From Dehalococcoidia bacterium (lineage in GTDB: Bacteria; Chloroflexota; Dehalococcoidia; Dehalococcoidales; W498), in NCBI GenBank assembly GCA_011170285.1, contig DUEE01000014.1, forward strand, positions 1 to 64,000: a DNA stretch of 64,000 nt. The letters run 5' to 3'. Each line of letters starts with the position of its first letter. The stretch's first letter is position 1. The notes beneath the pieces are model-generated. The model searched no databases, was not told the origin of the DNA, and saw nothing but the letters and a program-made list of their open reading frames with translations. The translations under genes were made by a program, and so were the position numbers. This document shows positions 24,724 to 41,647 of this stretch, piece by piece.

Positions 24724-25764
24724 TTATCCCAGTTTGCCATATTTCCTGGTGGCTGCCACCAGTGCCTCCATATTCTCCTTGGGTACGGTTGGCCACAGAT
24801 CACACCCCGGCCATACGGCATTGACACCATCAGCGATAGCCTCCTTCACCGCATTATCAATATCCTCAGGGGTTCCTCCCACCATCAGCTTAAAAGTGTC
24901 TATATTTCCCAGGATAAGCACATCAGGTCCTACCTTCTTCCGAGATTCGGCTATATGGTTCTTTTGCTCTACGCTGATGCCATCAGCCCCACAGGCAACC
25001 ATGTCCTCAACAATGGCATCTGTATCCCCACACATGTGCAATACCCTAGGCGAGGGTATAGCGGCAATGATTCGTTCTATATGAGGCTTTACTACACTTC
25101 TAAACATTCGCGGGCTTAATATTTCCCCACCGGCTGCCATCTCATGAATGGTTATATAATCGGCACCAGCTTCTTTATAAATCCTGGCCGTCTCAATTTC
25201 AACTTCATCCAAGATATCCAGCAGCTTGTGGACCATATCCGGCTTCTTAAACGCCAGCTTAGCCATGTTTCCGGGGTCGGTCACCTGCCCGGCTAAGGTA
25301 TAGGGTCCTAGAATTATAGCTCCTACTGCTACTTCCTTGCCTACCTCCTCTTTTAACAGACGAATCGCTTCCGCCACTACGGGTATCCTGCCCGCCTTGG
25401 CTAAATCCGAGGGCACATGGATATCTATATCCTGTATATGCTCGGCTAGATTCTTCTTTATGGTGGGAAAGATAACATTTTTATCGTAATGAGGGTAAAA
25501 ATTAATCTCGCAGCCAAGGGCTTGGGGTTCAACCCCGAAGTCAAAAGGTACTGTGGCACACTCTAAGCCATACAACTGAAATGAGGTTGCAGCTGCGGTC
25601 GCCATTTTGCGTGCGTCTGAGTGGAGGTCTATGAATCTTAAGCCACTTCTCTCCAGTCCATCTACTATTATGTTCCCCAACCCACTGAACACAGGGATGC
25701 GGTCTATCTCTTCCTTTCTAAAAAGTCTGAGCACTCGCTCTCTAGGATTTAGTTCTGTTTTCAT
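24724..25764 (-). CDS. MtaA/UroD-family corrinoid methyltransferase (first)
   Basis: The 346-residue TIM-barrel protein of the uroporphyrinogen decarboxylase superfamily has the MtaA/CmuA-type zinc site: HMC in PRVLHMCGDTDAIVEDM and a later Cys in WPGCDLWPTVP. It opens ELNPRERVLRLFRKEEIDRIPVFSG. MtaA-type enzymes move a methyl group between a corrinoid protein and a thiol or another acceptor. ATG 25764 is chosen because AGGAGGTGA is upstream; the longer frame from 25803 has none. It is the last gene of the minus-strand corrinoid region and is closely similar to the next gene, with which it shares a tandem-duplicate origin. Confidence 0.82.
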   Translation of the reverse strand: MKTELNPRERVLRLFRKEEIDRIPVFSGLGNIIVDGLERSGLRFIDLHSDARKMATAAATSFQLYGLECATVPFDFGVEPQALGCEINFYPHYDKNVIFPTIKKNLAEHIQDIDIHVPSDLAKAGRIPVVAEAIRLLKEEVGKEVAVGAIILGPYTLAGQVTDPGNMAKLAFKKPDMVHKLLDILDEVEIETARIYKEAGADYITIHEMAAGGEILSPRMFRSVVKPHIERIIAAIPSPRVLHMCGDTDAIVEDMVACGADGISVEQKNHIAESRKKVGPDVLILGNIDTFKLMVGGTPEDIDNAVKEAIADGVNAVWPGCDLWPTVPKENMEALVAATRKYGKLG

Positions 25765-25866
25765 ACTATTCACCTCCTGTATACTGAATTTCAAACATTG
25801 CATTCAACACAGCTGAACGCAAACTACCACAGCCATTGCTGGCAAATTTTAGCAACGATTACTCCC

Positions 25867-25985
25867 AACATTGTATACTTGCTCGCCGCTGCCAGCAGTG
25901 CCTATGTTCTCCTAGGGAATAGGAGACCAGATATTATACCCCGGTCATTACGGCATTGACACCCTCGGCGATAGATGTCTTCACC
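25867..25985 (-). pseudogene. degraded C-terminal end of a third UroD-type gene
   Basis: On the minus strand this gap has GGTGTCAATGCCGTA followed by CCGGGGT and AGGAGAA.AT...GCACTG, the same order as the end of the neighbouring methyltransferase gene (positions 24735-24860). There it encodes DGVNAVWPGCDLWP and then KENMEALVAATRKYG. The frame is broken by substitutions and small indels. It is a vestige of an additional tandem copy. Confidence 0.6.
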
Positions 25986-27060
25986 CTGCCCAGTGAGTCC
26001 CAGGAACCGGGTTCTCGGGGTCACTGTATTTCTTGGCTGCTTCCACCAGCGCTCTTATATTGTCCGCCGGTGCTTCTGGCCAAATATCACAGGCGGGCCA
26101 TAATGCATCAAGACCTTCGCCAATAACTATCTTCGCTTGCTTGTCAATCTCTTCCGGTGTTGACATTGCTATCAATTGGAAGACATCCAAGTTCCCCATA
26201 AGGCGTACACCAGTCCCCTTCGCAATCTCCCTGGATTTCCAGATATGATTCTTTTGCTCTACGGAGATGAATTCAGCCCCGGTTTTAACCATGTATTGCA
26301 TAATGTCATCGGTATCGCCACAGGAATGCAGAATCTTTGGGGAGTCTATTTGGGAAAACAAGTCCTGCAAATGAGGTAATATTAAGTCTTCATAAGTCTT
26401 CGGACTTAATAGCTCAGTGGAGGCCGTCATCTCACGAACACATACATAGTCAGCCCCAGCCTCTCGGAAAAACTTATTCTCCTTAGCCAAGTAGCCAGCC
26501 AGAGCCTCCAGTAACTTATGTACCATGTCTCTATTCTTCAGTACCATTTTAGACAGGTCAACAACAGAGTCTACTGCCCCAGCTACACCGTAGGGTCCCA
26601 AAGTGTAAGCGCCGATTGCTACCTCGTCACCTATTTCCTTTTTCAAAATGCGAATAGCCTCAGCCACTAAAGGTATCCTTCCCGATTTAGATGGGTCTGT
26701 CTTCTTTATTGCCTCAAGGTCTATATCCACCATCTTCTCAGCCAATTCGCGCGATGCGATAGGATAGGTGATTCTCTCTTTCTTCTCCTCGTAAAACCTG
26801 ACTTCGGTGCCTAAGGATTCAGCTTCTACATGGTAATCATAGGGAACCATGGCACACTCAAACCCAGTGGCTCGGTATGTAGCTGCTGACGCCATTGCCA
26901 TTTTATAAGGGTCTCGGTGCAGGTCTCCGAAATACCAGCCAAGACGGTCTACCTCTTCTATCAGTACATTCCCCATACCACTAAAACAGGGGATGCGGTC
27001 TACCTTTTCCTTCCTAAGAAATCGAAGCACTCGTTCTCTAGAATTCAGTTCTGTTGTCAT
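25981..27060 (-). CDS. MtaA/UroD-family corrinoid methyltransferase (second)
   Basis: The 359-residue paralog of the preceding gene starts ELNSRERVLRFLRKEKVDRIPCFSG. Its zinc ligands are in ILHSCGDTDDIMQYM (H-x-C) and WPACDIWPEAP. The C-terminus is extended (KYSDPENPVPGTHWAG). AAGGAG precedes the ATG at 27060. It lies 17 bases downstream of the MtrH-like gene, and the two are likely translated from one transcript. A methyl transfer role with the corrinoid protein at 30.8 kb is inferred; the substrate is unknown. Confidence 0.82.
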   Translation of the reverse strand: MTTELNSRERVLRFLRKEKVDRIPCFSGMGNVLIEEVDRLGWYFGDLHRDPYKMAMASAATYRATGFECAMVPYDYHVEAESLGTEVRFYEEKKERITYPIASRELAEKMVDIDLEAIKKTDPSKSGRIPLVAEAIRILKKEIGDEVAIGAYTLGPYGVAGAVDSVVDLSKMVLKNRDMVHKLLEALAGYLAKENKFFREAGADYVCVREMTASTELLSPKTYEDLILPHLQDLFSQIDSPKILHSCGDTDDIMQYMVKTGAEFISVEQKNHIWKSREIAKGTGVRLMGNLDVFQLIAMSTPEEIDKQAKIVIGEGLDALWPACDIWPEAPADNIRALVEAAKKYSDPENPVPGTHWAG

Positions 27061-27077
27061 ATTATTCCTGCTCCTTC

Positions 27078-28010
27078 TTATTTTGATAATTGCTCTACTA
27101 CATCAGGGAAGAGTAGATTCAAAGGATGACCCTCACTGGGTAAAGCTGCTCCCTCGTCATAAGCCCAGGTGGCAAGCAGGCTGATAGCCGCAGCCACCGC
27201 AGGAAAGACCCGGCTTGAGCCAGTCATGGGACCGTAGAAAATAAAGTCGCTTCCCATAGCAGTTATCGCCTCTATCGCCGCATCCATCGACGGGAAGTGT
27301 CTTTTGCCCTTCTCTTCCGCCGCCTTCAAATACATATAGGTTCCATTAGAGGGGGCGCAGCCCACCGGTAATCCGAATTCCTCCTTAACAAGACGATTAC
27401 CTATCAAGGAGAAAGCGGTGAGCGGTAAGCCCATCACCGCTGTATCCACCAAGATGCTCTCAAAGTTCCCTTTCTCTACCACAGGTAGCAGCTTATGAAG
27501 CGACTTCGGTCTACCTCGAGGACCCATATCCTCTACATCAAACGCCTGAACAACAATATGCTTGATACCCAGTTCCTTGATTTCCGCCACCTGAGCTTCA
27601 ATGTCCTCATCCCAGGGAGTGATGCTGTTATAAAGGAAGCGGTCCTGCAATCCTAGCTCAGCTATATAGCGTGCTGCCTCCACTCTTGGCTTCTGGACCC
27701 ACATGTCTATGGCGAAAGGCATATCGGTAACACTAGTGAAAAAATCCACATAGACCTTCATCTCGTCGGCTTTATTAGCCACCATAGCCACCATGCCAGG
27801 CACACCTGTCTCCTGGGAAAGCCTCTCCATCTCGTGGATCCGCTCCTCAGCTTCCTTTTTGTTGAACTTGCGATCCTTCCTGCTCTCAATAAGTGTGTCT
27901 CCCTTCTGGAACATGCTGCTGATTAGGAGCGGAGCATTCTCTCCTGGCTGCCCACCCACCTTAACGCCACCAATGTTGCAAACCTTTTGTTCTAAACTAT
28001 ATCTATACAT
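27078..28010 (-). CDS. MtrH-like methyl-tetrahydropterin:corrinoid methyltransferase
   Basis: The 310-residue TIM-barrel protein resembles MtrH. It has VCNIGGVKVGGQPGENAPLL, SSMFQKGDTLIESRKDRKFNK, IDMWVQKPRVEAARYI, ITPWDEDIEAQVAEIK and VGCAPSNGTYMYLK. In methanogens MtrH transfers methyl from methyl-tetrahydromethanopterin to the corrinoid of MtrA. Bacterial homologues next to corrinoid proteins are thought to use methyl-tetrahydrofolate. ATG 28010 is chosen (AAAGGAGGTG 8 bases upstream), seven codons inside the longest frame. It would supply the pterin side of the methyl shuttle with its MtaA-like and corrinoid neighbours. Confidence 0.82.
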   Translation of the reverse strand: MYRYSLEQKVCNIGGVKVGGQPGENAPLLISSMFQKGDTLIESRKDRKFNKKEAEERIHEMERLSQETGVPGMVAMVANKADEMKVYVDFFTSVTDMPFAIDMWVQKPRVEAARYIAELGLQDRFLYNSITPWDEDIEAQVAEIKELGIKHIVVQAFDVEDMGPRGRPKSLHKLLPVVEKGNFESILVDTAVMGLPLTAFSLIGNRLVKEEFGLPVGCAPSNGTYMYLKAAEEKGKRHFPSMDAAIEAITAMGSDFIFYGPMTGSSRVFPAVAAAISLLATWAYDEGAALPSEGHPLNLLFPDVVEQLSK

Positions 28011-28073
28011 TTGGTATACACCTCCTTTCACAAGCCATACCTAAAAGCTAGTAATACACCTCCTTTCTCAGGC

Positions 28074-30038
28074 TTACTTCGATGCCTTCTCAGGGAGAAG
28101 ATGCTTTAAGTGAGGGAACTCATCCTTCATATGAGGAAGCCACATAGCCTTACTAAAAACCTTATCAAAATCTGTCTCCACGGTTAATTCTATATATTCC
28201 ACCTGTCTTGCAATTTCGTCGGCTTCTTTCCTCTTGTCCACATCTAGCAGAGCTACCCGCGCTCCATCACCGGCGGCATTACCTACTGAATAGACATTCT
28301 CCAGATCACAATCGGGAAACATTCCAAGAACGGCAGCCGATTCCTTGTCAATGAAACTGCCGAAGGCTCCAGCCAGAATGACCTTATCCACTTTTTCTAT
28401 ACCTAGGTGACGCATCATCAGCTTGGCGCCGGAGTACATAGCTCCTTTAGCTAGCTGGATATTCCTGACATCCTCCTGGCAAGCTACAATATCCTGCCCA
28501 ATAGAGGTTTCATTCGCCCAGGCAACTACGAACTCAGGACCCTGCTCAGTAACACGCGCACGAGGAGTGTCCAAATCCTTGTTAAAACGCCCAGTGTGGT
28601 TGATAATACCCGCCAGGAACAATTGGGGCACAACATCAATTATTGCCGAGCCACAGATACCATTAGCTCCCAGGCTGTCCTCACATTCCGTATTCCACTC
28701 CTCTCTACCGATAACCTTGAACTGCGCCTCCTTAGTCTTTGGGTCTATCTTTATCTTCTCAATAGCCCCCGGAGCGGCCCGACAACCAAACCTTATCTCA
28801 GCTCCCTCAAACGCCGGTCCAGTGGCACAGGAGGAAGAGATAAGCTTATCCCGGTTGCCCAAGATTAACTCACCATTAGTGCCGATATCAATGACAAGTT
28901 CCATAGAATCCTGTTCATAGGGTCTCTCGGCAAGTAGCACCCCCACATTATCCGCCCCGACAAATCCTGCCTCTATGGGAAGTATATGAACATAAGCCCC
29001 CGGTGCTATCTTGAGTCCCAGGTCTCTAGTCTTTATATCTACAGAGCGGTGTCGTGCCGGCGGGAAGGGAGCCATGCCGATGTACTTAGTATCAAGAGCC
29101 ATAAGGAGATGGTGCATACAAGTATTGCCGACAGCGGTCATGTCAACGATATCACGTCGCTTGATGCCGGCTTGAGAGGCAGCTCTTCCGCAGACTTCAT
29201 TGAGACCCTTGACAATCTCCCGGCACATTATCTCGGCGCCGTCTTTGTGGGTCATATTATAGGTGATACGGGACATTACATCTTCGCCGTAAATTACTTG
29301 CGGATTCATCATGGATTCGGTGGCTACCACCTCGCCACTAGTCATCTCACAGAGGTAAGCAGCTACGGTGGTGGTGCCTATATCTATGGCTATACCATAA
29401 CTCTTTTCTACACGCCCGGGCTCAATCAAGATAATCTCTTTATCCATCCATACCGATACGGTTACCTTCCAGTCGCCCTCACGCACTACTTCCTGTTCAG
29501 TCAGCAGCACCTGATAATCAAGGTTGAGGTCTTTCAAGCCATACTGTTTAGTAAGTTCCGCATGCATGCGCTCAAAGTCGCCCAGCGTGTCCTCCAAGGT
29601 AGCTTTCTTTAGCTCCACATAGTATTTCTTCACCGCTGGGTTTGGCACAAGCCATGGTATCTCCCTGGCTGCTTTGCGTACCACCTGCTTTTTCACCCGG
29701 CTCTCCTCAGGGACGAAGACCATAACATCACCCTGAAGCCAAGCCTGACAAGCCAGACGGTAACCTTCTTTCGCCTCGTGAGAAGTGACAAACTTTTTCT
29801 CCGCTTCAGTTAGCGGAGAAAGATTGCTCTTTTTTGAGTCAATATGGTATTTCTCGAAGAACCCTTCTTCAATTCTAACCTTACACTTGCCGCAGGTAGC
29901 CTTTTCACCGCAAACGCCCTCTATGTCCACACCCAGCGCTACCGAAGCCTCCTTGAGATTTATCCCTGCATCCACCTCCCCTCTACGACCCGACGGTAGA
30001 AAGATAACTTTGTGCTTTTTGTTTTCCTTTTCTGGCAT
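28074..30038 (-). CDS. RamA-like reductive activator of corrinoid proteins (2Fe-2S + ASKHA domain)
   Basis: The 654-residue protein has an N-terminal plant-type [2Fe-2S] domain with Cys43, Cys49, Cys52 and Cys97 (GVCGEKATCGKC...RLAC). A linker with KKYYVEL and a C-terminal ASKHA (actin-like) domain of the DUF4445 type follow, beginning YGIAIDIGTTTVAAYL and continuing VIDIGTNGELILGN, SSSCATGPAFEGAEIR and ILAGAFGSFID. Proteins of this layout use ATP and low-potential electrons to reduce inactive Co(II) corrinoid back to Co(I). This fits the corrinoid methyltransferases around it. AAAGGAG precedes the ATG. Confidence 0.88.
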   Translation of the reverse strand: MPEKENKKHKVIFLPSGRRGEVDAGINLKEASVALGVDIEGVCGEKATCGKCKVRIEEGFFEKYHIDSKKSNLSPLTEAEKKFVTSHEAKEGYRLACQAWLQGDVMVFVPEESRVKKQVVRKAAREIPWLVPNPAVKKYYVELKKATLEDTLGDFERMHAELTKQYGLKDLNLDYQVLLTEQEVVREGDWKVTVSVWMDKEIILIEPGRVEKSYGIAIDIGTTTVAAYLCEMTSGEVVATESMMNPQVIYGEDVMSRITYNMTHKDGAEIMCREIVKGLNEVCGRAASQAGIKRRDIVDMTAVGNTCMHHLLMALDTKYIGMAPFPPARHRSVDIKTRDLGLKIAPGAYVHILPIEAGFVGADNVGVLLAERPYEQDSMELVIDIGTNGELILGNRDKLISSSCATGPAFEGAEIRFGCRAAPGAIEKIKIDPKTKEAQFKVIGREEWNTECEDSLGANGICGSAIIDVVPQLFLAGIINHTGRFNKDLDTPRARVTEQGPEFVVAWANETSIGQDIVACQEDVRNIQLAKGAMYSGAKLMMRHLGIEKVDKVILAGAFGSFIDKESAAVLGMFPDCDLENVYSVGNAAGDGARVALLDVDKRKEADEIARQVEYIELTVETDFDKVFSKAMWLPHMKDEFPHLKHLLPEKASK

Positions 30039-30075
30039 AATTCATCTCCTTTCTCCTTACATACTTGGTTGCGCC

Positions 30076-30402
30076 TTACTTGAGAGTATGCATACTATCG
30101 AACATCACCACCACATCACAAGGCAGTGCTAGCTCACACGCTGCCTCAGCCGCCTTAAGAATAGCCATGGGAACGGGGCATGCAGTATGCAAATGACAGT
30201 CTCCCGCCAATTTGTAAACCACAGTGTCCGCATGCTTTTTAAATATATCCCCCATCTCTATCTCAGGCAGAGCGTTACCCATCTCAGCGACCATCGGACA
30301 ATCGGTATTAATTTTGACCTTACACTTTTTCTTGTCAACTTTCTCAACGTCTATTTTGGCGATAAAACCACAGATACCTGACTTAACAATTAAACTAGTC
30401 AT
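30076..30402 (-). CDS. DUF6951-like small protein
   Basis: The 108-residue protein has conserved-looking cysteines in VKSGICGF, NTDCPMVAEMG, GDCHLHTACPVPMAILKAAE and LALPCDVVV. I recall this pattern (SGxCGF near the start, C.VP.AILKA.E and ALP.DV at the end) as DUF6951, found beside corrinoid methyltransferase genes of anaerobes; the name is from memory. Five or six cysteines could bind a metal or an Fe-S cluster. It lies 37 bases upstream of the RamA-like gene on the same strand, with AGGAG before the ATG. Its role may be in corrinoid or methyl-group handling, by context only. Confidence 0.6.
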   Translation of the reverse strand: MTSLIVKSGICGFIAKIDVEKVDKKKCKVKINTDCPMVAEMGNALPEIEMGDIFKKHADTVVYKLAGDCHLHTACPVPMAILKAAEAACELALPCDVVVMFDSMHTLK

Positions 30403-30502
30403 CTATACTCCTATCCTCTTACTCTAGCCCCCATCAACTTCAATAGAACTATGTACTACTCCCAACTGGCAGGAGGCAAAACAACCTACCAAATTCTGCT
30501 GA

Positions 30503-30682
30503 TTAGTCATACCAGCCGAAGTCATTGATTGCCTTGGTCATCATGTGAATATTATACAGAATCGAGTTGGGTAGCGACCCGCAGCTACTCTCTAAGAAAG
30601 AGCCTCTTGCATCCTTTTGCCCAATCTCGATACATTTTATACTAATTTCATAGATTTCATCGGGGGAAAACTTGCTAATACT
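30503..30682 (-). pseudogene. C-terminal relic of a UroD-family methyltransferase
   Basis: A 59-codon frame with no start reads SISKFSPDEIYEISIKCIEI, GQKDARGSFLESSCGSLP and NIHMMTKAINDFGWYD, ending in TAA (30505-30503). The spacing of the SPDEIYE, CGSLP and NIxMMxKAxxxFGWYD elements matches the C-terminal end of the UroD/MtaA family. An in-frame stop lies directly upstream. It occupies most of the gap between the DUF6951-like and corrinoid protein genes and is a different subfamily from the relic at 25.9 kb. Confidence 0.55.
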
Positions 30683-30830
30683 CTAAAAAGATGATGGACA
30701 ATGGGCATCTATCATTTTCATTAAGTGGGGAGCTACTTGATACATCATTTTATCCTGTCTTATTTCCCCACTTTTCCCGTCTCATTATTTAGGGCTCCAT
30801 TACCTAGCACCTCAGTATCCTGTGAGGGCA

Positions 30831-31514
30831 TTATTTCTTGCTCATCTCCTCTTCCTTCAGCATCTTAAGCAGTCCCATTGCTTCATCAACCGCAGTCCCA
30901 GCACTTTCAGCGTAGCCGTCAGCGCCGTATTTATCAGCAACCTCCGGGTTTATTGGAGCGCCACCTATCATGATGCGGATATTGGGATTTCTCGCCCTTA
31001 GCTTCTTTATCACTACCGGCATACCCAGCATACTGGTCGTCATCATTGCCGAGAGAGCCACCACATCAGAATCAGTCTTCATCTGCTCCTCAACAAACTT
31101 ATCTAACGGTACATCCTTTCCCAGGTCATAGACATTCCAACCAGCCACATCAAACATCATCTTGACCAGGTTTTTACCAATATCGTGGACATCGCCCTCA
31201 ACTACACCGATAACTAGAGAGCCTTTCACCTCGGATTTTCTCCCCGAGGCTAAGACGGCTGGTCTCAGCAAACCAAGCCCAGCATACATAGCATCGGAAC
31301 ACATCAAGAGCTCGGGAACAAAGTATTCCTTATTATTGTAGGCATCGCCGGCCTTCTGCATTCCAGTAGCCAGTCCTTCCATAATCGCCACGAAGGGGTC
31401 CACACCCTCATCCAGAGAAGCCTGGGACCACTTCACGGCATCGTCTTCTTCAAAGTTATATACTGCATCATCTAGCGCTTTCAGAATCTCTTTGGTTCTC
31501 TCTTCTGTTGCCAT
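30831..31514 (-). CDS. corrinoid protein, MtaC/MtbC family (first)
   Basis: The 227-residue protein has the two-part methionine-synthase-like layout. A helical cap (residues 1-95) with MEGLATGMQKAGDAYNNKEYFVPELL is followed by a B12-binding Rossmann domain with DVHDIGKN, whose His110 would be the lower axial cobalt ligand, then LSAMMTTSMLGM and MIGGAPINPEVADKYGADGYA. It carries the methyl group between the substrate-specific methyltransferases and the pterin- or thiol-dependent ones. ATG 31514 is chosen because AAAGGAG lies at good spacing; the 21-codon longer frame has none. A consensus promoter about 250 bases upstream implies a long leader. Confidence 0.9.
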   Translation of the reverse strand: MATEERTKEILKALDDAVYNFEEDDAVKWSQASLDEGVDPFVAIMEGLATGMQKAGDAYNNKEYFVPELLMCSDAMYAGLGLLRPAVLASGRKSEVKGSLVIGVVEGDVHDIGKNLVKMMFDVAGWNVYDLGKDVPLDKFVEEQMKTDSDVVALSAMMTTSMLGMPVVIKKLRARNPNIRIMIGGAPINPEVADKYGADGYAESAGTAVDEAMGLLKMLKEEEMSKK

Positions 31515-31768
31515 ACTTGTTCTCCTTTCTTGATTAAAAATATAATACTTTATCAGGTGGATAGTAATTTCTCTCACTTTAAGCTTTTTTATTATCTAGA
31601 TATAGCTGTCATCACCTCTCTTTCCGCTACTCAGCTTCATTGCCTAGGCGGCAATTTTTTGCAACAAAACGCAACCGCCCTCACCAAACAATGAGGACAC
31701 CATTTATTTATAGGCTATACTTTCGTCTTGCCGCTCTAGCGTTATATCTAATTAGGTAACCAATCTCC
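31515..31768 (-). promoter_or_regulatory. long 5' leader of the first corrinoid protein gene
   Basis: From the predicted start near 31768 to the ATG there are about 254 bases without a gene. The leader holds a GC stem (GGCGG/CCGCC) around a TTGC/GCAA inner stem in the 31645-31680 region. I do not see the conserved boxes of the cobalamin or tetrahydrofolate riboswitches. A regulatory RNA is possible but not shown. Confidence 0.3.
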
Positions 31769-31774
31769 TAATAG

Positions 31775-31804: not shown

Positions 31805-31872
31805 GAAAACATTCTGAGATTATTTCGCCATTCTTCACAGATATTAAGATATTTCTAGCCGAAAACCCAGAA

Positions 31873-32907
31873 TCATACCTTAAGTTTAAAGTTTTTAGCC
31901 TCTTCGGCAAGGACTTTTATGTTATTGAGCGGCATTAATGCTTCCAAACCACAGCAAGGCTCAAGCATAGTTATACCAGCCTCGAGCGCTTTCTTAGCAA
32001 CGGCTCTTACCTCGTCAACAGTACCATGGGTTAGCACCCCTTTTGAATCAACATTACCTAAGATTTTGACCTTACCTACGATTGGCTTGATACGAGCGAT
32101 ATCAACACTTGGCTTGATACTTATTGCATCAAAGCCAATATCAACGATTTCTGGTATAAATGGCTCGACATCCCCACAGAGATGTAGGATTCTTATTCCC
32201 TCTAGACTGTCGGCAATTCTTTTCAGGGCTGGCTTAATGTATTTTCTAAAAGTGGCGAGACCTATTATGTCAGGCGTCCCCAAGGGCTCACCAAGTGATA
32301 CTATATCTGAGCCAGCCCGATATTGGGCTTTAGCATACTGTATGATGGCTTCGGTAGCAAAATCAATGAACTTTTTAGCATTTTCCGGCTTCTTTATGCC
32401 CCACCCCATAAATTTAGTTGGTCCAGCTAACTCACTAGCCAGCGAATACGGACCAAAGATAAAGCTTGTTACCGGAAGAAAATCTCCCACTTGTTTTCTC
32501 ACCAGACCAATGGCTTCCATTATGACTGGAATTCTGTCTGTTTTCAGAAAATCATCTGGCATTTTCAGCTGTTCAGGGCTATCATACGCAGGTTTAATCG
32601 CGGCTGGTTTAAGGTCATTACGCTCATAGAATTTAATTCCACAGCCCAAAGCTTCAGGCAATATACTGAATTCGTGTCCAATGTTCACATTGCCCAGTCC
32701 AGTTATCTCCTGACTAGCAATAGCCAGTTTTGCCATCTTTTCAGGGTCTTGGAAAGCTTCGGGCCAGTATATTCCAGTAGCTTCTTGTATCTCTACTGTA
32801 ACATTTCCCCCACAAGCCCCAATACAGGTTGCCGGTACTTCATCAACCTCCCCTCCCAATAATGCAGCTAAGACCCTTCGTTTTGGAGTAAACTTCAATA
32901 TTTTCAT
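31873..32907 (-). CDS. MtaA/UroD-family corrinoid methyltransferase (third)
   Basis: The 344-residue UroD-fold protein is more distant from the two paralogs at 24.7-27.1 kb. It opens KFTPKRRVLAALLGGEVDEVPATCIGA and keeps the zinc site as HLC in IRILHLCGDVEPFIPE and a Cys in MLEPCCGLEALMP. It also has IFGPYSLASELAG. GGGAGG ends one base before ATG 32907, too close for a normal ribosome site. Initiation at the TTG 12 bases inside (residue 5) is possible. It is 11 bases downstream of the CobW-type gene on the same strand, so the two are probably cotranscribed. Confidence 0.78.
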   Translation of the reverse strand: MKILKFTPKRRVLAALLGGEVDEVPATCIGACGGNVTVEIQEATGIYWPEAFQDPEKMAKLAIASQEITGLGNVNIGHEFSILPEALGCGIKFYERNDLKPAAIKPAYDSPEQLKMPDDFLKTDRIPVIMEAIGLVRKQVGDFLPVTSFIFGPYSLASELAGPTKFMGWGIKKPENAKKFIDFATEAIIQYAKAQYRAGSDIVSLGEPLGTPDIIGLATFRKYIKPALKRIADSLEGIRILHLCGDVEPFIPEIVDIGFDAISIKPSVDIARIKPIVGKVKILGNVDSKGVLTHGTVDEVRAVAKKALEAGITMLEPCCGLEALMPLNNIKVLAEEAKNFKLKV

Positions 32908-32918
32908 ACCTCCCAAAT

Positions 32919-33965: not shown

Positions 33966-34064
33966 TGCTATGCTCCCATTAAAAGTCATTTTTGGCTGCT
34001 CTAATATATCTTAATTTCCAAAACTTGCCTAGCCCTTGCTACCGCTGCCATAATTGTATCCTTA

Positions 34065-35126
34065 TTAGGCAACCAAGCATTCCCAATATTTACCAAGATA
34101 TATCTTGGCAAATTCTACTATCTCCTCTGTTTCTTTCAATCTAAGGTCTTTTTTAAGTTCATCAGGAACAGGCACCGGCTCTTCTAGCTCTATTTTGACT
34201 CCAGTTACCCCAGCTAAGGATGCTAGCCAACCAAGAGCTACTACCCTCGAATCATAGCTATAACCAGAACCCACAAAATCAATAACCTTACCCTCACATA
34301 GTTCTTCAGCAGTTTCTTTCACTATATTACCAATCACTTTGATACCTTTTAGAGTTAATCCCATTTGCGTTATTCTATCGGTAAAGTGAGTATCGCTCCC
34401 GTCTATCATCATTATTATCTCTGGCTTAAATTCCTTAGCCAGTGGGACAAAAATACTTCTGAGCACATACTGATAAGCTGTGTCACTTGTCCACGGCGGC
34501 AGCGGTATATTTACTGAATAGCCTGCACCATCCCCTTCTCCTATTTCATCAACAAAACCTTTTCCGGGATAAAGGGTACGAGGATTCTGATGAATTGATA
34601 TATGCAAGACTCTAGGCTCCTGGCAAAAGATATGATAAATACCATCACTGGCATGGGCATCCACATCCAGGATTAAAATCCTATTTATACCATGATTTAA
34701 CATTAAGTTCTCAGCGCATAGTCCCACATCGCTAAATATACCGAATCCTTTCTCATGGTCTCTTCGTGCATGCTGCACTCCTCCTCCTATAACAAAAGCC
34801 TTGTCAAATCTACCTGATACAATAAGCTCACCGGCAAGTTTTCCTGCCCCGGCAAGGAGCTTTGCCGCCCTAACCAGACCCGGTGAAAGCGGGGTATCAT
34901 GTGGGTCTTTTGATTCACATCTGTCTACTCTTCTAATATAGTCCTCAGTATGGACAAGTTTTAATTCAGCATCGGTGGCATTTGAGGGTTCAATTATCTC
35001 GAAATCAGGATTTCCACCCAGTATATCCCTAAATAAGCGCATAAAATTTTCATATCTTTCGCCAGTGAGCACATGACCTAAATCATACTCCTTCATTTTT
35101 TCACTATATAAAATCGCTGCTTTCAT
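34065..35126 (-). CDS. histone deacetylase/AcuC-superfamily hydrolase
   Basis: The 353-residue arginase/deacetylase-fold protein has GGGVQHARRDHEKGFGIFSDV, LDVDAHASDG (Asp156 and His158 as zinc ligands), DGSDTHFTD (Asp245, third ligand) and the catalytic Tyr loop GSGYSYDSR. At the usual His-His pair it has Gln118-His119, so the first His is replaced while the general base/acid His is kept. Such proteins deacylate acetyl-lysine, acetoin-type or acetylpolyamine substrates. It sits between the CobW GTPase and a SAM methyltransferase in the corrinoid region; the substrate is unknown. No clear ribosome site precedes the ATG. Confidence 0.8.
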   Translation of the reverse strand: MKAAILYSEKMKEYDLGHVLTGERYENFMRLFRDILGGNPDFEIIEPSNATDAELKLVHTEDYIRRVDRCESKDPHDTPLSPGLVRAAKLLAGAGKLAGELIVSGRFDKAFVIGGGVQHARRDHEKGFGIFSDVGLCAENLMLNHGINRILILDVDAHASDGIYHIFCQEPRVLHISIHQNPRTLYPGKGFVDEIGEGDGAGYSVNIPLPPWTSDTAYQYVLRSIFVPLAKEFKPEIIMMIDGSDTHFTDRITQMGLTLKGIKVIGNIVKETAEELCEGKVIDFVGSGYSYDSRVVALGWLASLAGVTGVKIELEEPVPVPDELKKDLRLKETEEIVEFAKIYLGKYWECLVA

Positions 35127-35146
35127 AATCGCAACCGTTCACCAGG

Positions 35147-35213
35147 TGTCATCAAGAGGGAGCGTAGCGACCGAACAATCCTGTAGACCCTTCGCTTGGC
35201 TCAGGGTGACAAA
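35147..35213. repeat. dispersed intergenic repeat-like element
   Basis: The element begins GTCA and ends TGAC, and contains GGGAGCGTAGCGACCGAA and CCCTTCGCTTGGCTCAGGGT. This is the look of the short dispersed repeats often seen between genes in sediment bacteria. Only one copy is present in this window. Confidence 0.45.
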
Positions 35214-35248
35214 GAAAGTAACTGAATGCTTACTCATAATCTTCCGGC

Positions 35249-36472
35249 TTATTTTACTACTTCAAAGACCGCCACCAGCCCATGCCCACATCCCAGTCCT
35301 TGCTGAAGTCCCATCTCCAGCTCCCTGAGACAGTAGCCCAATTGCGGTTCGACCAGGCTAGCCCTGGGGTTGCCTATTCCTAATCTTGATGCCACCCTGA
35401 CTACCTTCCTCATTACACTAAGCGCTCTCCTAAGAGGTAGAGGCGTCTCGTCCAGTGCTTCCGGGAGTTCGCTACCCTCAAGTAGTGCCTTGGTATAAGT
35501 TACCAAGTAATTCCAGCAATCAGCTAGCCTCTGGTGGTAATTGTTTGCCTCGGGGAAACCATCTCTGGGGACATAGAAAATCAATATATCATCTAGATTG
35601 GTGCACAAGTTAGGCTCAAAAAGAGAATTGACTAATCGGCGTAGGGGTTGACAGTGGGGATTATATTTGGCTGTATCCATGTGGCGCCCCACGAATGAGG
35701 AGCGGTCAGTTAGCTTCCGCAATACAATGCTACCTCCAACCTTCCTCTTTGCCTGGCGATAAATATGTAAAACCTCTTGGCTCCCAACAATCCTTAACGG
35801 GAAATAAGTCAACTCTGGCTGCTTTACCCAGTCGCCTGAGTATATGTAAGAGATGGCATAATCCATCCACTGGTTATTATCCAAATCTTTCGTCCATAGC
35901 GTCTGCCACTCATATGAGAAGCGCCCCAGCCAGTCAATCATGATAAGGGCACCATCTTGGCTGTGTTTGGCGATGTTGTTCAACAGTTCTACAGTCTGCT
36001 CATCGGTGTTGTGAGATAGCGTTCCATAGTTGGCTAGATACAGATCATAGGGTTCTTCGCTTGAGAAATCGTAGTCATTAAAGTCTGACTTGACGAAAAC
36101 CACATTCTGTTTATCTCCATAGATAGCCCGGGCTTGCCTCAGCAGCCCCTCATTTATATCAATTCCTTGGTAAAACTCAAGCATGTCAGGCGGGATAACT
36201 ATTGTGTTAGGCTCTGAAATCGAGGAGTTACTGGTTATGTTGGTAACGATCCCCAAGCCATCCCCACTACCACAGCCAAGGTCCAGTAGGCGAAGCTTTT
36301 GACTACGCTCCGTCTTTTGGGCTACCAGCCGCTCCAGATATGGTCTCAAGTAGAGACCAAGCTCTTCATCCTCCCAGAATCGGCGCACATTATCGTATTT
36401 CCCTAGAAGCCCAGTTAGTTTCTGGTAATGCCCGCTCTTGAGCGCCTCATTGTAAGCATCTACCTTGGTCAT
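35249..36472 (-). CDS. SAM-dependent methyltransferase
   Basis: The 407-residue protein has a class I methyltransferase core: motif I LRLLDLGCGSGDGL, motif II FYQGIDINEGLLRQAR and a DLYLANYGTLSH strand where motif IV lies. A 200-residue C-terminal region follows (IYRQAKRKVGGSIVLRKLTD) that I do not recognise; it includes GFPEANNYHQRL and a closing GLGCGHGLVAVFEVVK. The acceptor is unknown. It directly follows the second corrinoid protein gene: its first possible start, TTG 36484, overlaps that stop codon, while ATG 36472 is used here. Both have a short-spaced ribosome site. Confidence 0.65.
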   Translation of the reverse strand: MTKVDAYNEALKSGHYQKLTGLLGKYDNVRRFWEDEELGLYLRPYLERLVAQKTERSQKLRLLDLGCGSGDGLGIVTNITSNSSISEPNTIVIPPDMLEFYQGIDINEGLLRQARAIYGDKQNVVFVKSDFNDYDFSSEEPYDLYLANYGTLSHNTDEQTVELLNNIAKHSQDGALIMIDWLGRFSYEWQTLWTKDLDNNQWMDYAISYIYSGDWVKQPELTYFPLRIVGSQEVLHIYRQAKRKVGGSIVLRKLTDRSSFVGRHMDTAKYNPHCQPLRRLVNSLFEPNLCTNLDDILIFYVPRDGFPEANNYHQRLADCWNYLVTYTKALLEGSELPEALDETPLPLRRALSVMRKVVRVASRLGIGNPRASLVEPQLGYCLRELEMGLQQGLGCGHGLVAVFEVVK

Positions 36473-36480
36473 AAATCCTC

Positions 36481-37173
36481 TCAACCTTCCACATTAGTGC
36501 TTAAAGCCTCCATCACCCTTACTGCCTCAAAGCCATCAGCTCCGTAACCATCAGCACCTATACTTTGAGCGAATTCCTCTGAGATAGGCGCCCCACCAAT
36601 AATGACCTTCACCTTGTCCCTCACCCCACTCTCGGTGAGTAATTCAATAGTTTCTCTCATGCGTATCCTAGTACTGGTTAGCAGCGCTGATAGCCCAAGG
36701 AATTGTGGTCTTTCCTTCGCCACCGCATCCACGATAGCTTGAGGAGTGATATTATTCCCCAAGTCCTCGACCGTATAGCCTGCCCCTCGAAGCAATATCG
36801 ATACTATGTTCTTCCCGATATCGTGAAGGTCTCCTTTTACCGTAGCCACAATTATCTTGCCCTTGGGCTTGATGCCACTCTTGACGAGATGAGGCTCCAG
36901 TATCTCCATGGCTGCCCCCACCGCCTCAGCCGAGGCTAACATATCAGGAAGAAAATATTCCTCAATCTCAAATTTCTGGCCCACGACGACCATAGCCTCG
37001 CTGAATCCCCTTTTTATTATATCCTCGGGGTTAATGCCCTGGGCAAGGGCTTTCTCAGTAAGCTCGCTGACCCCGGGCTGCCCCACCTTTCCCTCATCAA
37101 AGCCTTCATCATCCTGGGTTACCCTCCCCTGGATAACATTTTCTCGAATTAAGCTAATCATATCCTCTGCCAT
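36481..37173 (-). CDS. corrinoid protein, MttC/MtbC family (second)
   Basis: The 230-residue protein has a helical cap (GFSEAMVVVGQKFEIEEYFLPDML) followed by a B12-binding domain with DLHDIGKN (His117 as lower cobalt ligand), LSALLTSTRIRM and IIGGAPISEEFAQSIGADGYG. It is encoded immediately downstream of an MttB-family methyltransferase and probably accepts its methyl group. GGAG precedes the ATG at 37173. A 20-30 residue N-terminal insertion after IRENVIQG distinguishes it from the first corrinoid protein. Confidence 0.9.
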   Translation of the reverse strand: MAEDMISLIRENVIQGRVTQDDEGFDEGKVGQPGVSELTEKALAQGINPEDIIKRGFSEAMVVVGQKFEIEEYFLPDMLASAEAVGAAMEILEPHLVKSGIKPKGKIIVATVKGDLHDIGKNIVSILLRGAGYTVEDLGNNITPQAIVDAVAKERPQFLGLSALLTSTRIRMRETIELLTESGVRDKVKVIIGGAPISEEFAQSIGADGYGADGFEAVRVMEALSTNVEG

Positions 37174-37189
37174 TCTTATTCTCCAACTT

Positions 37190-38716
37190 TTAGTAATTCA
37201 TCATCCTGGTTAACAAGCCGGGTACCTGCTGAAATACCCTGTCTATGGTCACTTTATCTATATGGCGAGGTGGCAGTAACAAGACCTCCTCCATTTGTTG
37301 TTGCGCCCGAAGCAGCGTCTCATCTACCATATCTTTGCTCTCAAAGGGATATGGTGGTGTAATCTCACCGGAACGAAGCGCACTCCGCACAAACCGGATA
37401 TAGAGCTTATGGGAGGTGCCCATAACCCTCCTTACCTGTTCCAGAGATTCCGAAATCCTATCCGCAGTCACTATCGGCTGTCTGACAAATCTCTTTACCA
37501 TGCTTATATGGGCATTATCTAGTACCGCTTGAACCGGACAAAAGGTATTGGTTCGCTCCAAAAGCCCAAAGGCGTAGTGAATATATTGTGGACCGGCGAG
37601 TGTCACCAGGATGTGGGAAAACAACCTCTCCACTGAAGCCTGTATCCCAGGCACCTTCACATCGGAGACACCTCCGGTGGAGTAGCAGGGTAGACCATAA
37701 TAGCGTGCCATCTGGACACAATCAATGTTATACTGGTTGAACTCAGGGACTCCATAGGAGTCATAAAGGTCATCCATGCGCGCCCTTACCGGTACGCTAC
37801 CATAGAGTACAGGCGTACCCTTGTTCACCAATTGAGTTAGGGCTACTCCCACCAAAATCTCAGCATTGATCTGAGCTACCATGCCCTCTTCTCTAATGGG
37901 GGCAGTGGAGCCACCCTGGGGTGAACTGGAGATGACCAGTGGGATGTTCCTCCTGGCTATCTCTATCGCCGTCTGTGTAGTATCGTCCACGAACTGAAGG
38001 GGGCTTTTGACCACGCAGGTGATAAAGGAGATGATGGGGTTTTCCTTGAACCTGTCCTCTCCGCCAGCTATAATGCGGGACATCTTGACCACATTATCCA
38101 GTTGACTAAGCTCAGTTAATCCGGACATCACATGCTTAGTGGTATTGTTCAGTGAGGCAAAGAACTTATTAACATCCTTGTTATCGTCAGTGATGTCATC
38201 ATCCTGAATATTGACGGGGCGCAGGAAGCTGTCCCAGGAATCCAGATGCTCGCACATACGAGCCGCCTTGGCTAGCCTGTCCACAGTACCCTTCTGCACC
38301 CTGAACACGGGAAACTTAACCTCATAACCTGGCTCACGCTTACTGATGAAAGTTTCCACATCCACATCTAGCCAGTTGTTAGCCTCGGAGCCTGAGGCAA
38401 AGTGCACCCTCGGTTCCTGCCCATCAAGGATAAGGCAGTTATTCTCATCCCGTGCCCCAAGCTTGACCACCTTCGGTGCCGCCTGCACTGCATCGGTGAT
38501 TATCTTCCCGGGTATCTTGAGCAGCCAGCAGTCGGCACTGCCCTGACGCATGGGTAAAACTTCAGCACCGTGGTCACCGAAGATGTCAGCCGCATTGCGG
38601 TTGAAACACAACACGCCAGGGTCAGCCAATATGGCTAGAGAAGCTCTGTGAATCTGCTCCACATGCTCCAGTTTGAGCCTCTGGTACGGTTCCACCAGAA
38701 TTCCTTGCCGTGGCAC
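37190..38716 (-). CDS. MttB-family (trimethylamine methyltransferase-like) methyltransferase, first
   Basis: The 508-residue TIM-barrel protein of the MttB superfamily has LEHVEQIHRASLAILADPGV, SLNNTTKHVMSGLTE, LVISSSPQGGSTAPI and GGVSDVKVPGIQASVERLF. The frame has no in-frame TAG, so it lacks the pyrrolysine of true MttB. It belongs with the non-Pyl homologues, of which some demethylate glycine betaine, proline betaine or carnitine. The GTG start at 38716 has AGGAGGG 5-6 bases upstream. It is followed by its likely corrinoid partner and preceded by the MtgA-like gene. Confidence 0.85.
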   Translation of the reverse strand: MPRQGILVEPYQRLKLEHVEQIHRASLAILADPGVLCFNRNAADIFGDHGAEVLPMRQGSADCWLLKIPGKIITDAVQAAPKVVKLGARDENNCLILDGQEPRVHFASGSEANNWLDVDVETFISKREPGYEVKFPVFRVQKGTVDRLAKAARMCEHLDSWDSFLRPVNIQDDDITDDNKDVNKFFASLNNTTKHVMSGLTELSQLDNVVKMSRIIAGGEDRFKENPIISFITCVVKSPLQFVDDTTQTAIEIARRNIPLVISSSPQGGSTAPIREEGMVAQINAEILVGVALTQLVNKGTPVLYGSVPVRARMDDLYDSYGVPEFNQYNIDCVQMARYYGLPCYSTGGVSDVKVPGIQASVERLFSHILVTLAGPQYIHYAFGLLERTNTFCPVQAVLDNAHISMVKRFVRQPIVTADRISESLEQVRRVMGTSHKLYIRFVRSALRSGEITPPYPFESKDMVDETLLRAQQQMEEVLLLPPRHIDKVTIDRVFQQVPGLLTRMMNY

Positions 38717-38726
38717 TGCATCCCTC

Positions 38727-39533
38727 CTAGTCTACTAAAATTCCCTTCCGATGAGCCCTGATGTATCCCCTGGGAGTGCCCTTACCCGTAAGCATATCAG
38801 CCACCTTGATAAAGCTCATCATTTTAGCGTCCAGCGGATTTAGTATCACTGCATCGAGTCCAGCGTAGGCTGCCATTAACAGGAAGGCACGATTGACCAG
38901 CCTCCTATTGGGCAATCCATAGGAAATATTACTCAAACCTAATACAGTCCTGGCCTCCGGATAGCGGGATTTGATCTGATCTATGGTCTTTAGGGTAACT
39001 AATCCCTGGCTGGTATCTACAGCGATGGGGAATAATAGAGGGTCAAAGAATATCTGCTCTGCCTTCACGCCCAAGCGAGTCAGGTGTGTCATTATCAGCT
39101 CACAGGCGGCTAGACGTTCTTCAATATCTTTGGGCATTCCGTTGTTTCCCATAGCCAGCGCCACCAGCCAAGCTTTACGCCCTGCTGTCAAGGAGCCAAT
39201 AGAGTCTAGCTTCTCAGGCTCGGCAGTGACAGAGTTGATTATTAGCCTTTCACCTCGGTATTTGTGCAGAGCAGCCTCTATCACACCTGGAATGTCACTA
39301 TCAATAGCCAATGGCTTGTCCGTAGCTGCCTGAACTACCTCCACCAACCACTCCATAGTCGCCATTTGCTGTTCACAAGAGCCCTTTTCCATGCCAGCGT
39401 TTACATCAATAAAATCAGCCCCAGCTACAGCTTGAGCTCTAGCCAAATCTTGCAGGAATGGCCTATCCCGCCTAGCGAGGGCTTTAGCCACCGACCTGTT
39501 TGATGCATTGATGTTTTCCCCGATTACTAACAT
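38727..39533 (-). CDS. MtgA-like methyltetrahydrofolate:corrinoid methyltransferase
   Basis: The 268-residue pterin-binding TIM barrel starts MLVIGENINASNRSV and has GADFIDVNAGM, LAIDSDIPGVIEAAL, FFDPLLFPIA and VLGLSNISYGLPNR, then AGLDAVILNP. These are the dihydropteroate-synthase/AcsE-type motifs. In glycine betaine pathways MtgA moves the methyl from the corrinoid protein to tetrahydrofolate, and the MttB-family and corrinoid genes alongside fit that scheme. It starts 4 bases after the second MttB gene's stop, without its own strong ribosome site, so translational coupling is likely. Confidence 0.88.
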   Translation of the reverse strand: MLVIGENINASNRSVAKALARRDRPFLQDLARAQAVAGADFIDVNAGMEKGSCEQQMATMEWLVEVVQAATDKPLAIDSDIPGVIEAALHKYRGERLIINSVTAEPEKLDSIGSLTAGRKAWLVALAMGNNGMPKDIEERLAACELIMTHLTRLGVKAEQIFFDPLLFPIAVDTSQGLVTLKTIDQIKSRYPEARTVLGLSNISYGLPNRRLVNRAFLLMAAYAGLDAVILNPLDAKMMSFIKVADMLTGKGTPRGYIRAHRKGILVD

Positions 39534-39536
39534 ATC

Positions 39537-40976
39537 TCAGTTCACGATACCCGTTATTTCCGAGAGTACCCGATGTCTTATCGCTGGGGGTAGACTGTAG
39601 TTATGGTTAGCAAGAATATCCTTTACCCTTTCTGCTGCTCTCTCCCAGGTGGTCTTACTCCCCTTAGCTGCCCATTCCTCCCGGCTATACCTATCGCTCA
39701 CTGAGGGCTGGTAATGCTCACTACGCATGAAGTCCCTGGTGTGCTTAGCGGTAACGAAATTACCCCCTGGACCCACCTCCTTAATGAGGTCAAAGGCCAA
39801 ACTGTCATCGTCAACCTTTATGCCCTCAACGGCTCTCATCACCATTCCCAGTATATCGTTGTCTATAACAAACTTCTCGTAGCACGCTGTTAATGCGAAT
39901 TCCATCAATCCGGCAGCGTCGTGGATAAAATTGGCGCCTGCCAGAGCACAGAGCAGGCTGGTGAGCGCAGACTCATAGCCACTCTGGGCATCCAGAACTT
40001 TAGAGTCGGTCATACCGCCAGTAGCATAGAAGGGGAGTCGGTAAAAATGAGCCATCTGGGCACCAGCCGCATTAAGCAAACCCATCTCAACTGAGCCGGC
40101 AAGATACTTGAAGCTTTTGAGATCTGCACTACTGGCTACCGAGCCAAAGATGACCGGTGTCCCTGGATTGACAATCTGGGTAAGCATTACACCCATTAAG
40201 GAGTCCACAGTCTGGATCACCAGGTTTCCGGTGAGCGTCACTGGCGATGTTGCCCCACATAGAGGTTCAGCGGGGCACACCAGAGGAATACCAGCCTGGG
40301 CGATGGTCACTACCAGGTCACCATATTGCTTATCTATCTTCAGGGGACTTATGCTACAGGTTACCATAGAGATGAGGGGATGCTGCCGAAGTGTTTCAGC
40401 AGAGCCAGTGATGATTTCTGCCATCTGTATTACCTGGTTCACCCCATCTAGGGTGTAAACACCTCCCATGACATGCTTAGTGGTATTGTCTAGCCCGGCG
40501 AAGAAGCGGTTTACATCCACCTGCTCTACGGGTAGCTCATTGGGATAGGTAGGCAGCATAAACAGATGAATATTATCCAGATGATCAACCAATCTGGCAA
40601 TGCGCTTCAAGTCATCTAGACTTGCCAGTCTCCTCTGTCCCGTGTCTGGGTGATAGATGTAGAGGGCAGTGCCACCGGTTCCGGTGCTTACCCGAGACCC
40701 GCCGAGGAGGATATCGTGCTTCTCATCTTGTCCGCATAGTCTAACCTCAGACGGTGCCATCTCAATAAGCTCCATAGCTTTTTTCTCAGACAGACGCACC
40801 TGACGCCTTTCCCAATCCACCCGGCCACCAGTCACCTCAAACAATTCCAGCGCTGCTTGGGAATTTACCTCAAAACCAACCTCCTCAATTACCCGCATTG
40901 CTGTTTGGTGAATTCGGTATATAGACTCTTCGGTAAGGGGTTTAAATCTGCCCCCAGCCAACCCCTCCCGAATCAT
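39537..40976 (-). CDS. MttB-family (trimethylamine methyltransferase-like) methyltransferase, second
   Basis: The 479-residue MttB-superfamily protein is a distant paralog of the one at 37.2 kb. It has PLTEESIYRIHQTAMRVIEEVG, STGTGGTALYIYHPDTGQRR, GLDNTTKHVMGGVYT, PAEPLCGATSPVT and GGMTDSKVLDAQSGYESAL. There is no in-frame TAG, so no pyrrolysine. Together with MtgA, the corrinoid protein and the activation-domain gene it makes a compact demethylation set. GGAGG lies just before the ATG, which overlaps the stop of the upstream gene in ATGA. Confidence 0.85.
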   Translation of the reverse strand: MIREGLAGGRFKPLTEESIYRIHQTAMRVIEEVGFEVNSQAALELFEVTGGRVDWERRQVRLSEKKAMELIEMAPSEVRLCGQDEKHDILLGGSRVSTGTGGTALYIYHPDTGQRRLASLDDLKRIARLVDHLDNIHLFMLPTYPNELPVEQVDVNRFFAGLDNTTKHVMGGVYTLDGVNQVIQMAEIITGSAETLRQHPLISMVTCSISPLKIDKQYGDLVVTIAQAGIPLVCPAEPLCGATSPVTLTGNLVIQTVDSLMGVMLTQIVNPGTPVIFGSVASSADLKSFKYLAGSVEMGLLNAAGAQMAHFYRLPFYATGGMTDSKVLDAQSGYESALTSLLCALAGANFIHDAAGLMEFALTACYEKFVIDNDILGMVMRAVEGIKVDDDSLAFDLIKEVGPGGNFVTAKHTRDFMRSEHYQPSVSDRYSREEWAAKGSKTTWERAAERVKDILANHNYSLPPAIRHRVLSEITGIVN

Positions 40977-41647
40977 ACCTCCCTCCTACTCGGACAATCG
41001 TATTTAGGGCAGGTTTTACAGGGATTGTAATTCTCTACATTATTACAGGGACCAATACCAATAATGCCTGATACTGACTTACCGGGAAGCATCAGACAGT
41101 CCTCGGTTAAGTGAATTCCTGCTGAATCTCCGCCTACAGCCTCAAAGACCAACTTCTGTTGACATAATCCCCAATCACAATAACCTGGGCTGAAGCGAAG
41201 GCTTATGCAAAGCCCCTGAGCCCGAGCCACTTCGCCTACTCTTCTTTGGACAAAATCAGCTACCGCCTCAGCAGCAACTGACCCTATTGCGTCCAGCACA
41301 GTCGCCTGGAGTATGAGCCCATCGTTAGCCATCTGGCGGACCGTCTCCTCCAAGTGAGTACCTATTGTCAATAAGAACACGGCAACCTTTTCACATTGCT
41401 CCATTATCTGGGCAATGACCTTGCTTTGAAAGGTCACCGAACCTTCAATAACAATACGGGATCCCTTCACCGACTTGATGTCCCTGATGACACCTGAATA
41501 TGACGGTTCAATAAGGTTGCCAGCGTGCTCTATATACTCATTTACCAAAGGCGCGATACGAGCCGACGGCTTACAATCATTACAGTACCCAATATTAAGC
41601 AATACCTGTCGGCTATCGATATTTATCCGGTCGCTTATAGCCTGCAT
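40973..41647 (-). CDS. vitamin B12-dependent methionine synthase activation domain protein
   Basis: The 224-residue stand-alone protein resembles the MetH activation domain. It has TIGTHLEETVRQMANDG, VLDAIGSVAAEAVADFVQ, RFSPGYCDWGLCQQ (the RxSPGY signature, which binds SAM in MetH) and a Cys-rich tail IGPCNNVENYNPCKTCPKYDCP. The tail could carry an Fe-S cluster for electron delivery. Stand-alone versions occur with corrinoid methyltransferases, where they may help reactivate oxidised cobalamin. It is the first gene of the minus-strand methyltransferase operon and overlaps the next by 4 bases. Confidence 0.85.
   Translation of the reverse strand: MQAISDRINIDSRQVLLNIGYCNDCKPSARIAPLVNEYIEHAGNLIEPSYSGVIRDIKSVKGSRIVIEGSVTFQSKVIAQIMEQCEKVAVFLLTIGTHLEETVRQMANDGLILQATVLDAIGSVAAEAVADFVQRRVGEVARAQGLCISLRFSPGYCDWGLCQQKLVFEAVGGDSAGIHLTEDCLMLPGKSVSGIIGIGPCNNVENYNPCKTCPKYDCPSRREV

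Follow-up and report, generated by a model that had tools for sequence, protein, structure and literature searches.

A 64,000-nt stretch of the genome of a Dehalococcoidia bacterium (contig DUEE01000014.1), referred to here as the window, carries a dense set of corrinoid-dependent methyltransferase genes at positions 24724-41647. In this region, two corrinoid methyl-transfer systems with independent inheritance lie side by side, module A (41647-35249) and module B (31577-24724). Module A is a conserved unit in which two betaine-type methyltransferases of the MttB superfamily are coupled to an S-adenosylmethionine (SAM)-dependent methyltransferase (SAM-MT) of no named family. On balance, module A probably demethylates an imported betaine-type quaternary amine and delivers the methyl group to tetrahydrofolate (THF). 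A reading of the same region from the sequence alone (the original prediction) had described several pathways mixed together. The gene orders of relatives instead separate the two modules, and it is this comparison that indicates their independent inheritance.

The region contains fifteen intact genes, all on the minus strand, in a listing of open reading frames (ORFs) with translations. Every protein class named in the original prediction was confirmed by Pfam and NCBIfam profile searches with scores well over the curated cut-offs, and the described gene set does lie on one strand as intact ORFs. The label of one activase changed. This protein had been called RamA-like, but it carries a 2Fe-2S motif near its N-terminus and is of the RACo/AcsV kind: RACo_C_ter scores 318 bits, compared to 109 bits for the RamA model (cut-off 500). 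The earlier inventory omitted SAM-MT, the gene that marks module A, as well as a histone-deacetylase-family protein, a CobW-type GTPase, a DUF6951 protein, and the remnant of a gene near 30506-30664. It also overlooked that module B has lost a methyltransferase gene.

Module A is a conserved operon

Module A begins with a MetH-type corrinoid activation protein (MetHact; 40973-41647), which is the conserved first gene of the unit. It matches Pfam Met_synt_B12 with 35 bits and displays an RxxPGY motif (RFSPGY, residue 151), in line with the methionine-synthase activation domain recognized earlier. It is followed by MttBa (39537-40976), a non-pyrrolysine MttB-superfamily methyltransferase, an MtgA-like methyl-corrinoid:THF methyltransferase (38727-39533; PRK07535, 277 bits, cut-off 259), and MttBb (37190-38716), a divergent MttB-superfamily protein. 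The last two genes encode CorA (36481-37173), an MtgC/MtbC-like corrinoid protein with B12-binding domains and a DxHxxG motif (DLHDIG), and the 411-aa SAM-MT (35249-36484, likely start ATG at ~36472).

These genes are tightly packed, with intergenic gaps of -4, 3, 10, 16, and -4 bp. The gaps beyond 35249 toward 24724 include 122, 75, 295, and 428 bp. The genes form separate units, split by these gaps. Promoter-like sites, which are consensus matches only, lie ahead of MetHact (42019-41991) and ahead of CorB, the first gene of module B (31804-31775).

How widely is this unit distributed? A scan of 84,980 species returned 106 SAM-MT relatives, of which the best 80 loci were kept; other searches covered 150 relatives for SAM-MT and MtrH and 151 for MttBb. 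The 80 loci span about eleven phyla, as judged from record titles. These include Chloroflexota, Nitrospirota, desulfobacterial groups, Actinomycetota, Planctomycetota, Spirochaetota, Lentisphaerota, Kiritimatiellota, Latescibacterota, Hydrogenedentota, and Armatimonadota. The one record noted that is not a metagenome-assembled genome is Desulfurivibrio sp. AMeS2 (L103). MttBb lies next upstream of SAM-MT, or with just CorA between them, in 77 loci, and the other three are cut by contig ends. The complete seven-gene order, which includes an asparagine-synthase-like (AsnS) gene, was found in 30 of the 80. Among the 150 relatives, SAM-MT homologues with 62-76% identity were present in nine, and most of those with long enough contigs keep the order MetHact-MttBa-MtgA-MttBb-CorA-SAM-MT at high identity.

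SAM-MT is optional yet widely spread, while MttBa, MttBb, and CorA make up the core. This distinction arises because MttBb was found in 31 of the 151 relatives and about 20 of these lack SAM-MT. Their core reads MetHact-MttBa-X-MttBb-CorA, where X is either MtgA or an additional CorA, and AsnS is usually present too.

The two MttB proteins

With MTTB scores of 371 bits (MttBa) and 183 bits (MttBb) against a curated cut-off of 25, both proteins belong to the MttB superfamily. As predicted, both are of the non-pyrrolysine type. No in-frame amber codon interrupts either ORF, and the pyrrolysine site reads GGMTDSK and GGVSDVK. An Rfam PYLIS_3 match at 39914-40013 falls inside mttB. A pyrrolysine reading of this match was rejected since the ORF is open and the match reflects mttB homology.

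MttBa matches the glycine betaine methyltransferase 9yce with 305 bits. In a tree with only three solved references, MttBa formed its own clade (support 100/99), except for one MttBa-labelled row (L077) that fell outside it. MttBb formed a separate clade (support 100/100) on a long stem of 2.03. Neither protein grouped with MtgB in this tree, where MtgB paired with 4yyc. The MttB superfamily comprises thousands of proteins, few of which have known substrates.

SAM-MT is an unnamed methyltransferase

SAM-MT belongs to a family that has no name, and its C-terminal part is large. The motif DxGCGxxDG was invariant in an alignment of 55 sequences. In other words, the motif I residues D68, G70, C71, G72, D75, and G76 never varied, and many aromatic residues were likewise invariant. 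Generic class I methyltransferases are its sequence matches, and no NCBIfam model reached its cut-off, so that assignments to CpaM, UbiE, or BioC were rejected on score. A structure predicted from 55 homologues had a pLDDT of 87.6 and a pTM of 0.87; a shallow model from 10 sequences (pLDDT 56.5) was discarded. Among the 50 Foldseek matches listed for the model, only generic class I methyltransferases appeared, several of them N-methyltransferases, with query TM scores of at most about 0.4, and these matches gave no indication of the substrate.

One possibility is that SAM-MT does not act on the methylated substrate at all but maintains the corrinoid. It might, for instance, use SAM to remethylate inactive CorA, as a backup or replacement for MetHact. 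Consistent with this idea, SAM-MT directly follows CorA in 54 of the 80 loci, SAM-MT persists where MetHact is missing, and several loci without SAM-MT still have MetHact. However, both genes occur together in most full operons, MetHact retains its RxxPGY motif, and reduced loci have SAM-MT but no linked CorA. Moreover, we know of no class I methyltransferase that remethylates a corrinoid protein with SAM. Such a role is improbable.

Partners and natural variants of module A

AsnS genes are present in 58 of the 80 SAM-MT loci, and a GCS2-type ligase paired with ProA is present in five. The two never overlap (P=0.0011 if the loci were independent, which they are not). Most module A AsnS proteins lack the N-terminal glutaminase cysteine, starting with MSG, MAG, or MAA, and several start with MCG. 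Genes for Opu/ProU-type betaine importers also lie near the unit, with ProV-like matches, some of them weak, in 37 of the 80 loci and OpuAC in 26. MarR regulators recur around these loci as well.

The operon in the window has no adjacent AsnS gene. An AsnS homologue (49% identity) occurs in the same genome at C23:13220-14668. In addition, an AsnS-like N-terminal fragment of 182 aa directly precedes a complete Opu-type importer at C6:71656-75825 (L168 7656-11825), 30 kb from module A. The original prediction held that substrates are not predictable from motifs. This still applies to sequence motifs, but the linkage to Opu-type importers favours a betaine as the substrate of module A.

In three loci, a glycyl radical enzyme follows CorA in place of SAM-MT (L172 1564-4032, L173 3675-6131, and L182 2612-5257), and an activase is visible beside it in at least one. 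In a fourth locus, L024, the enzyme (11767-14289) and an activase come after SAM-MT and AsnS. This enzyme belongs to no named subfamily, as it scores under every named-family cut-off. An identity as choline trimethylamine-lyase was rejected: the CutC score is 443-453 bits against a cut-off of 1050, and the one protein aligned reads GCSY where CutC has GCVE and thus lacks the Cys-x-Glu motif. A small METTL27-like SAM-dependent methyltransferase (95 bits), distinct from SAM-MT, adjoins the glycyl radical variant (L173 2930-3604, L172 1-536, and L182 937-1563).

These natural swaps narrow the possible substrate: AsnS alternates with GCS2 plus ProA, MtgA with a second corrinoid protein, and SAM-MT with a glycyl radical enzyme. 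A search of a partial literature collection found no paper that links MttB with asparagine synthase or synthetase, and none on module A.

Direction of methyl transfer in module A

What does module A do? The gene identities, their packing, their conserved association, the motifs, and the folate-branch genes are observed; the direction of methyl flow, the substrate class, and the roles of SAM-MT and the ligase are inferred as follows. An Opu-type ABC importer would bring in a betaine-type quaternary amine. MttBa and MttBb would each remove a methyl group from an N-methylated compound and load it onto Co(I)-CorA, and the MtgA-like enzyme would then hand it from CorA to THF. MetHact would restore oxidised CorA, using SAM. 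SAM-MT and the AsnS-like or GCS2-type ligase may modify the imported amine or its product, for instance by capping or amidating it. Demethylation is favoured because known MttB proteins demethylate quaternary amines, because importers are linked to the unit, and because a radical enzyme can replace SAM-MT. Characterised non-pyrrolysine MttB proteins transfer the methyl group of quaternary amines to THF or coenzyme M (PMC8604678).

The rest of the genome is in agreement with this direction. It has two MTHFR genes, one of them within the window at 6535-7410, together with FTHFS and the acetyl-CoA synthase CdhC. The feeding of THF, which the original prediction had proposed, is thus plausible. 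Of the two outcomes that were named there as refuting it, absence of folate-linked methyl-branch genes elsewhere in the genome and placement of the UroD-type genes with haem-pathway UroD, neither was found. The prediction that at least two substrates are demethylated also gains ground. More than one substrate class is likely because contig C19 of this genome (L025 360-15492) additionally carries mtaB (635 bits) and another pair of MttB genes. That locus also has an MtaA-type gene, and its MttB pair belongs to a separate MtgA-CorA-MttB-MttB-DUF1638-RACo cluster and falls elsewhere in the MttB tree. The same cluster comes after module A in a relative (L058).

Several observations weigh against demethylation of a betaine by module A. 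In 18 of the 80 loci, from Planctomycetota, Spirochaetota, and others, the unit is reduced, and CorA, MtgA, and MetHact are not linked to it; the corrinoid-protein cap domain was matched elsewhere in 10 of the 11 reduced-set genomes searched, mostly in stand-alone CorA-like proteins. In the sister species (G001), searches for markers of modules A and B found none. MttBb stands far apart from all of the MttB references in the tree and may therefore catalyse a different reaction. Finally, a catabolic operon is an odd place for SAM-MT and an ATP-using ligase, which would suit synthesis.

The last point leads to a model in which module A is biosynthetic. Here, MtgA would charge CorA from methyl-THF, MttBa and MttBb would methylate, SAM-MT would add a further methyl group, and the ligase would amidate, producing an N-methylated compatible solute. 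The intact SAM-MT motif in all 55 homologues agrees with this model, as do the linked AsnS or GCS2-ProA, which are ATP-using biosynthetic enzymes that never occur together, and the Opu importers and MarR regulators close by. A strong ectoine synthase match was found in just one of 18 module genomes, and MetH-type activation belongs elsewhere to a methylating enzyme, MetH. However, we know of no characterised MttB protein that methylates in vivo. The glycyl radical enzyme that takes the place of SAM-MT in three relatives, and follows SAM-MT and AsnS in one, looks catabolic, and about 20 relatives have MttBb but no SAM-MT. We consider a biosynthetic module A unlikely. Slightly more doubtful is its extension, that an MttB pair methylating via CorA and a new SAM-MT family would provide anaerobes of about eleven phyla with an inexpensive, B12-dependent way to make a betaine-type osmolyte. 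This seven-gene cross-phylum unit, with its two distant MttB paralogues and unnamed SAM-MT, presents a defined target in the search for a new betaine-metabolism reaction in anoxic sediments.

Module B and its activase

Module B begins with CorB (30831-31577), the second of the two predicted corrinoid proteins, which has a B12-binding domain and a DxHxxG motif (DVHDIG) and shares 75-77% identity with its counterparts in relatives' module B. It is followed by a DUF6951 protein (30076-30402; PF22263, 95 bits; same position in L141 and L143) and the RACo/AcsV-type corrinoid reductive activase (28074-30038), which has RACo domains and the 2Fe-2S cysteines 43/49/52/97. An MtrH-like methyl-corrinoid:pterin methyltransferase comes next (27078-28031; MtrH 172 bits; PRK00979 318 bits, cut-off 287), followed by MtaA2 (25981-27060) and MtaA1 (24724-25803, likely start MKTELN at ~25764; 51-58% identity in relatives' module B). 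MtrH homologues were found in six of the 150 relatives. Three clear cases read CorB, a UroD-type gene of ~360 aa, (DUF6951), RACo, MtrH, and MtaA1, often with DUF2284 nearby. In the window, a divergent DUF2284 gene neighbours the module on the plus strand (23800-24474; PF10050, 127 bits) and is adjacent in L141, L142, and L144 as well.

The UroD-type gene has decayed in the window. Within the 428-bp gap between CorB and DUF6951 (30403-30830), ~53 codons are recognisable at 30506-30664 on the minus strand, where tblastn gives 37-42% identity to the C-termini in L140-L143; the frame is otherwise broken.

The three UroD/MtaA-type proteins of the original prediction (249, 220, and 223 bits) are MtaA-like rather than haem-pathway UroD. 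They score 252 (MtaA2), 280 (MtaA1), and 326 bits (MtaA3) with the MtaA-family model (cut-off 244) and 56-75 bits with hemE, and the best match of both MtaA1 and MtaA3 is the MtaA structure 4ay7 (254 bits for MtaA3), with every haem UroD far behind. The HxC...C zinc motif is retained in each of the three as HMC, HSC, or HLC with a downstream Cys (HSC in MtaA2 and HLC in MtaA3). Their scores with the MtaA equivalog for methylcobamide:coenzyme M methyltransferase, 222-291 bits, are below its cut-off of 400. Module B is an Mto/Odm-like unit that probably transfers methyl groups from an O-, S-, or C1-methyl donor to THF.

Relatives of the window activase include long forms of 1144-1171 aa (L140 827-4270, L142 9628-13143, and L143 5274-8708). 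A domain search located Fer4_20 and Pyr_redox_2 (about 350-820) between the RACo middle and C-terminal parts. This in-frame insertion of ~490 aa resembles the GltD/NfnB-like Fe-S/FAD/NAD(P)H oxidoreductases and lies within the ASKHA region; an intein was rejected on the same search. Full-length matches occur in just three of 393 genomes of the class. The domain content suggests that the nested oxidoreductase is an integral donor of NAD(P)H-derived electrons when the corrinoid is activated.

Genes between the two modules

Three genes lie between the modules. The 122-bp gap after SAM-MT separates it from a histone-deacetylase-family amidohydrolase (34065-35126; Hist_deacetyl, 227 bits), and a 75-bp gap follows. 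An 85% identical gene lies between SAM-MT and AsnS in L036, and the protein is a possible accessory of module A. Next is a pair formed by the CobW/HypB-type GTPase (32919-33989; cobW 87 bits, under all NCBIfam cut-offs) and, 2 bp away, MtaA3 (31873-32916), after which 295 bp precede CorB. The 122-bp gap also contains a repeat-like element, CCCTGAGCCAAGCGAAGGGTCT (35185-35206), present in a single copy in the window.

Comparison with known systems

CpaM (NCBIfam NF043040) is, like SAM-MT, a SAM-dependent methyltransferase, and is annotated as corrinoid protein-associated. However, SAM-MT reaches only 13.2 bits with the CpaM model (cut-off 180), has almost double the length of CpaM, and includes a large C-terminal part.

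Module A resembles the MtgB-MtgC-MtgA glycine betaine system of Desulfitobacterium and marine bacteria in combining a non-pyrrolysine MttB, a stand-alone corrinoid protein, and a methyl-corrinoid:THF methyltransferase. MtpB, MtcB, and MtyB with MtqC-MtqA in Eubacterium limosum have the same three components. Unlike these systems, module A combines two distantly related MttB paralogues in a single operon and adds a dedicated SAM-MT and, in the unit at large, a linked AsnS-like or GCS2-type ligase. Activation also differs, being MetH-type beside module A and RamQ/RACo-type in the others.

Module B resembles the Mto/Odm O-demethylases of Methermicoccus, Desulfitobacterium, and Acetobacterium. The Mto system of Methermicoccus has the matching four protein classes (PMC8630106), namely an MtrH-like protein, a UroD/MtaA-type protein, a corrinoid protein, and an activase with an N-terminal 2Fe-2S motif, and module B holds all of them in one unit. 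It is possible on these grounds that module B is an aryl O-demethylase like Mto, although we regard this as less likely than not. MtaA1-3 are shorter (337-365 aa) than MtoB (47-48 kDa; PMC8630106) and carry the MtaA-type HxC...C motif, the extra UroD-type gene of the relatives is a remnant in the window, and thiol or halide substrates are also possible. Module B further differs from Mto/Odm in its DUF6951 and DUF2284 neighbours and, in some relatives, in an activase that carries the nested oxidoreductase domain.

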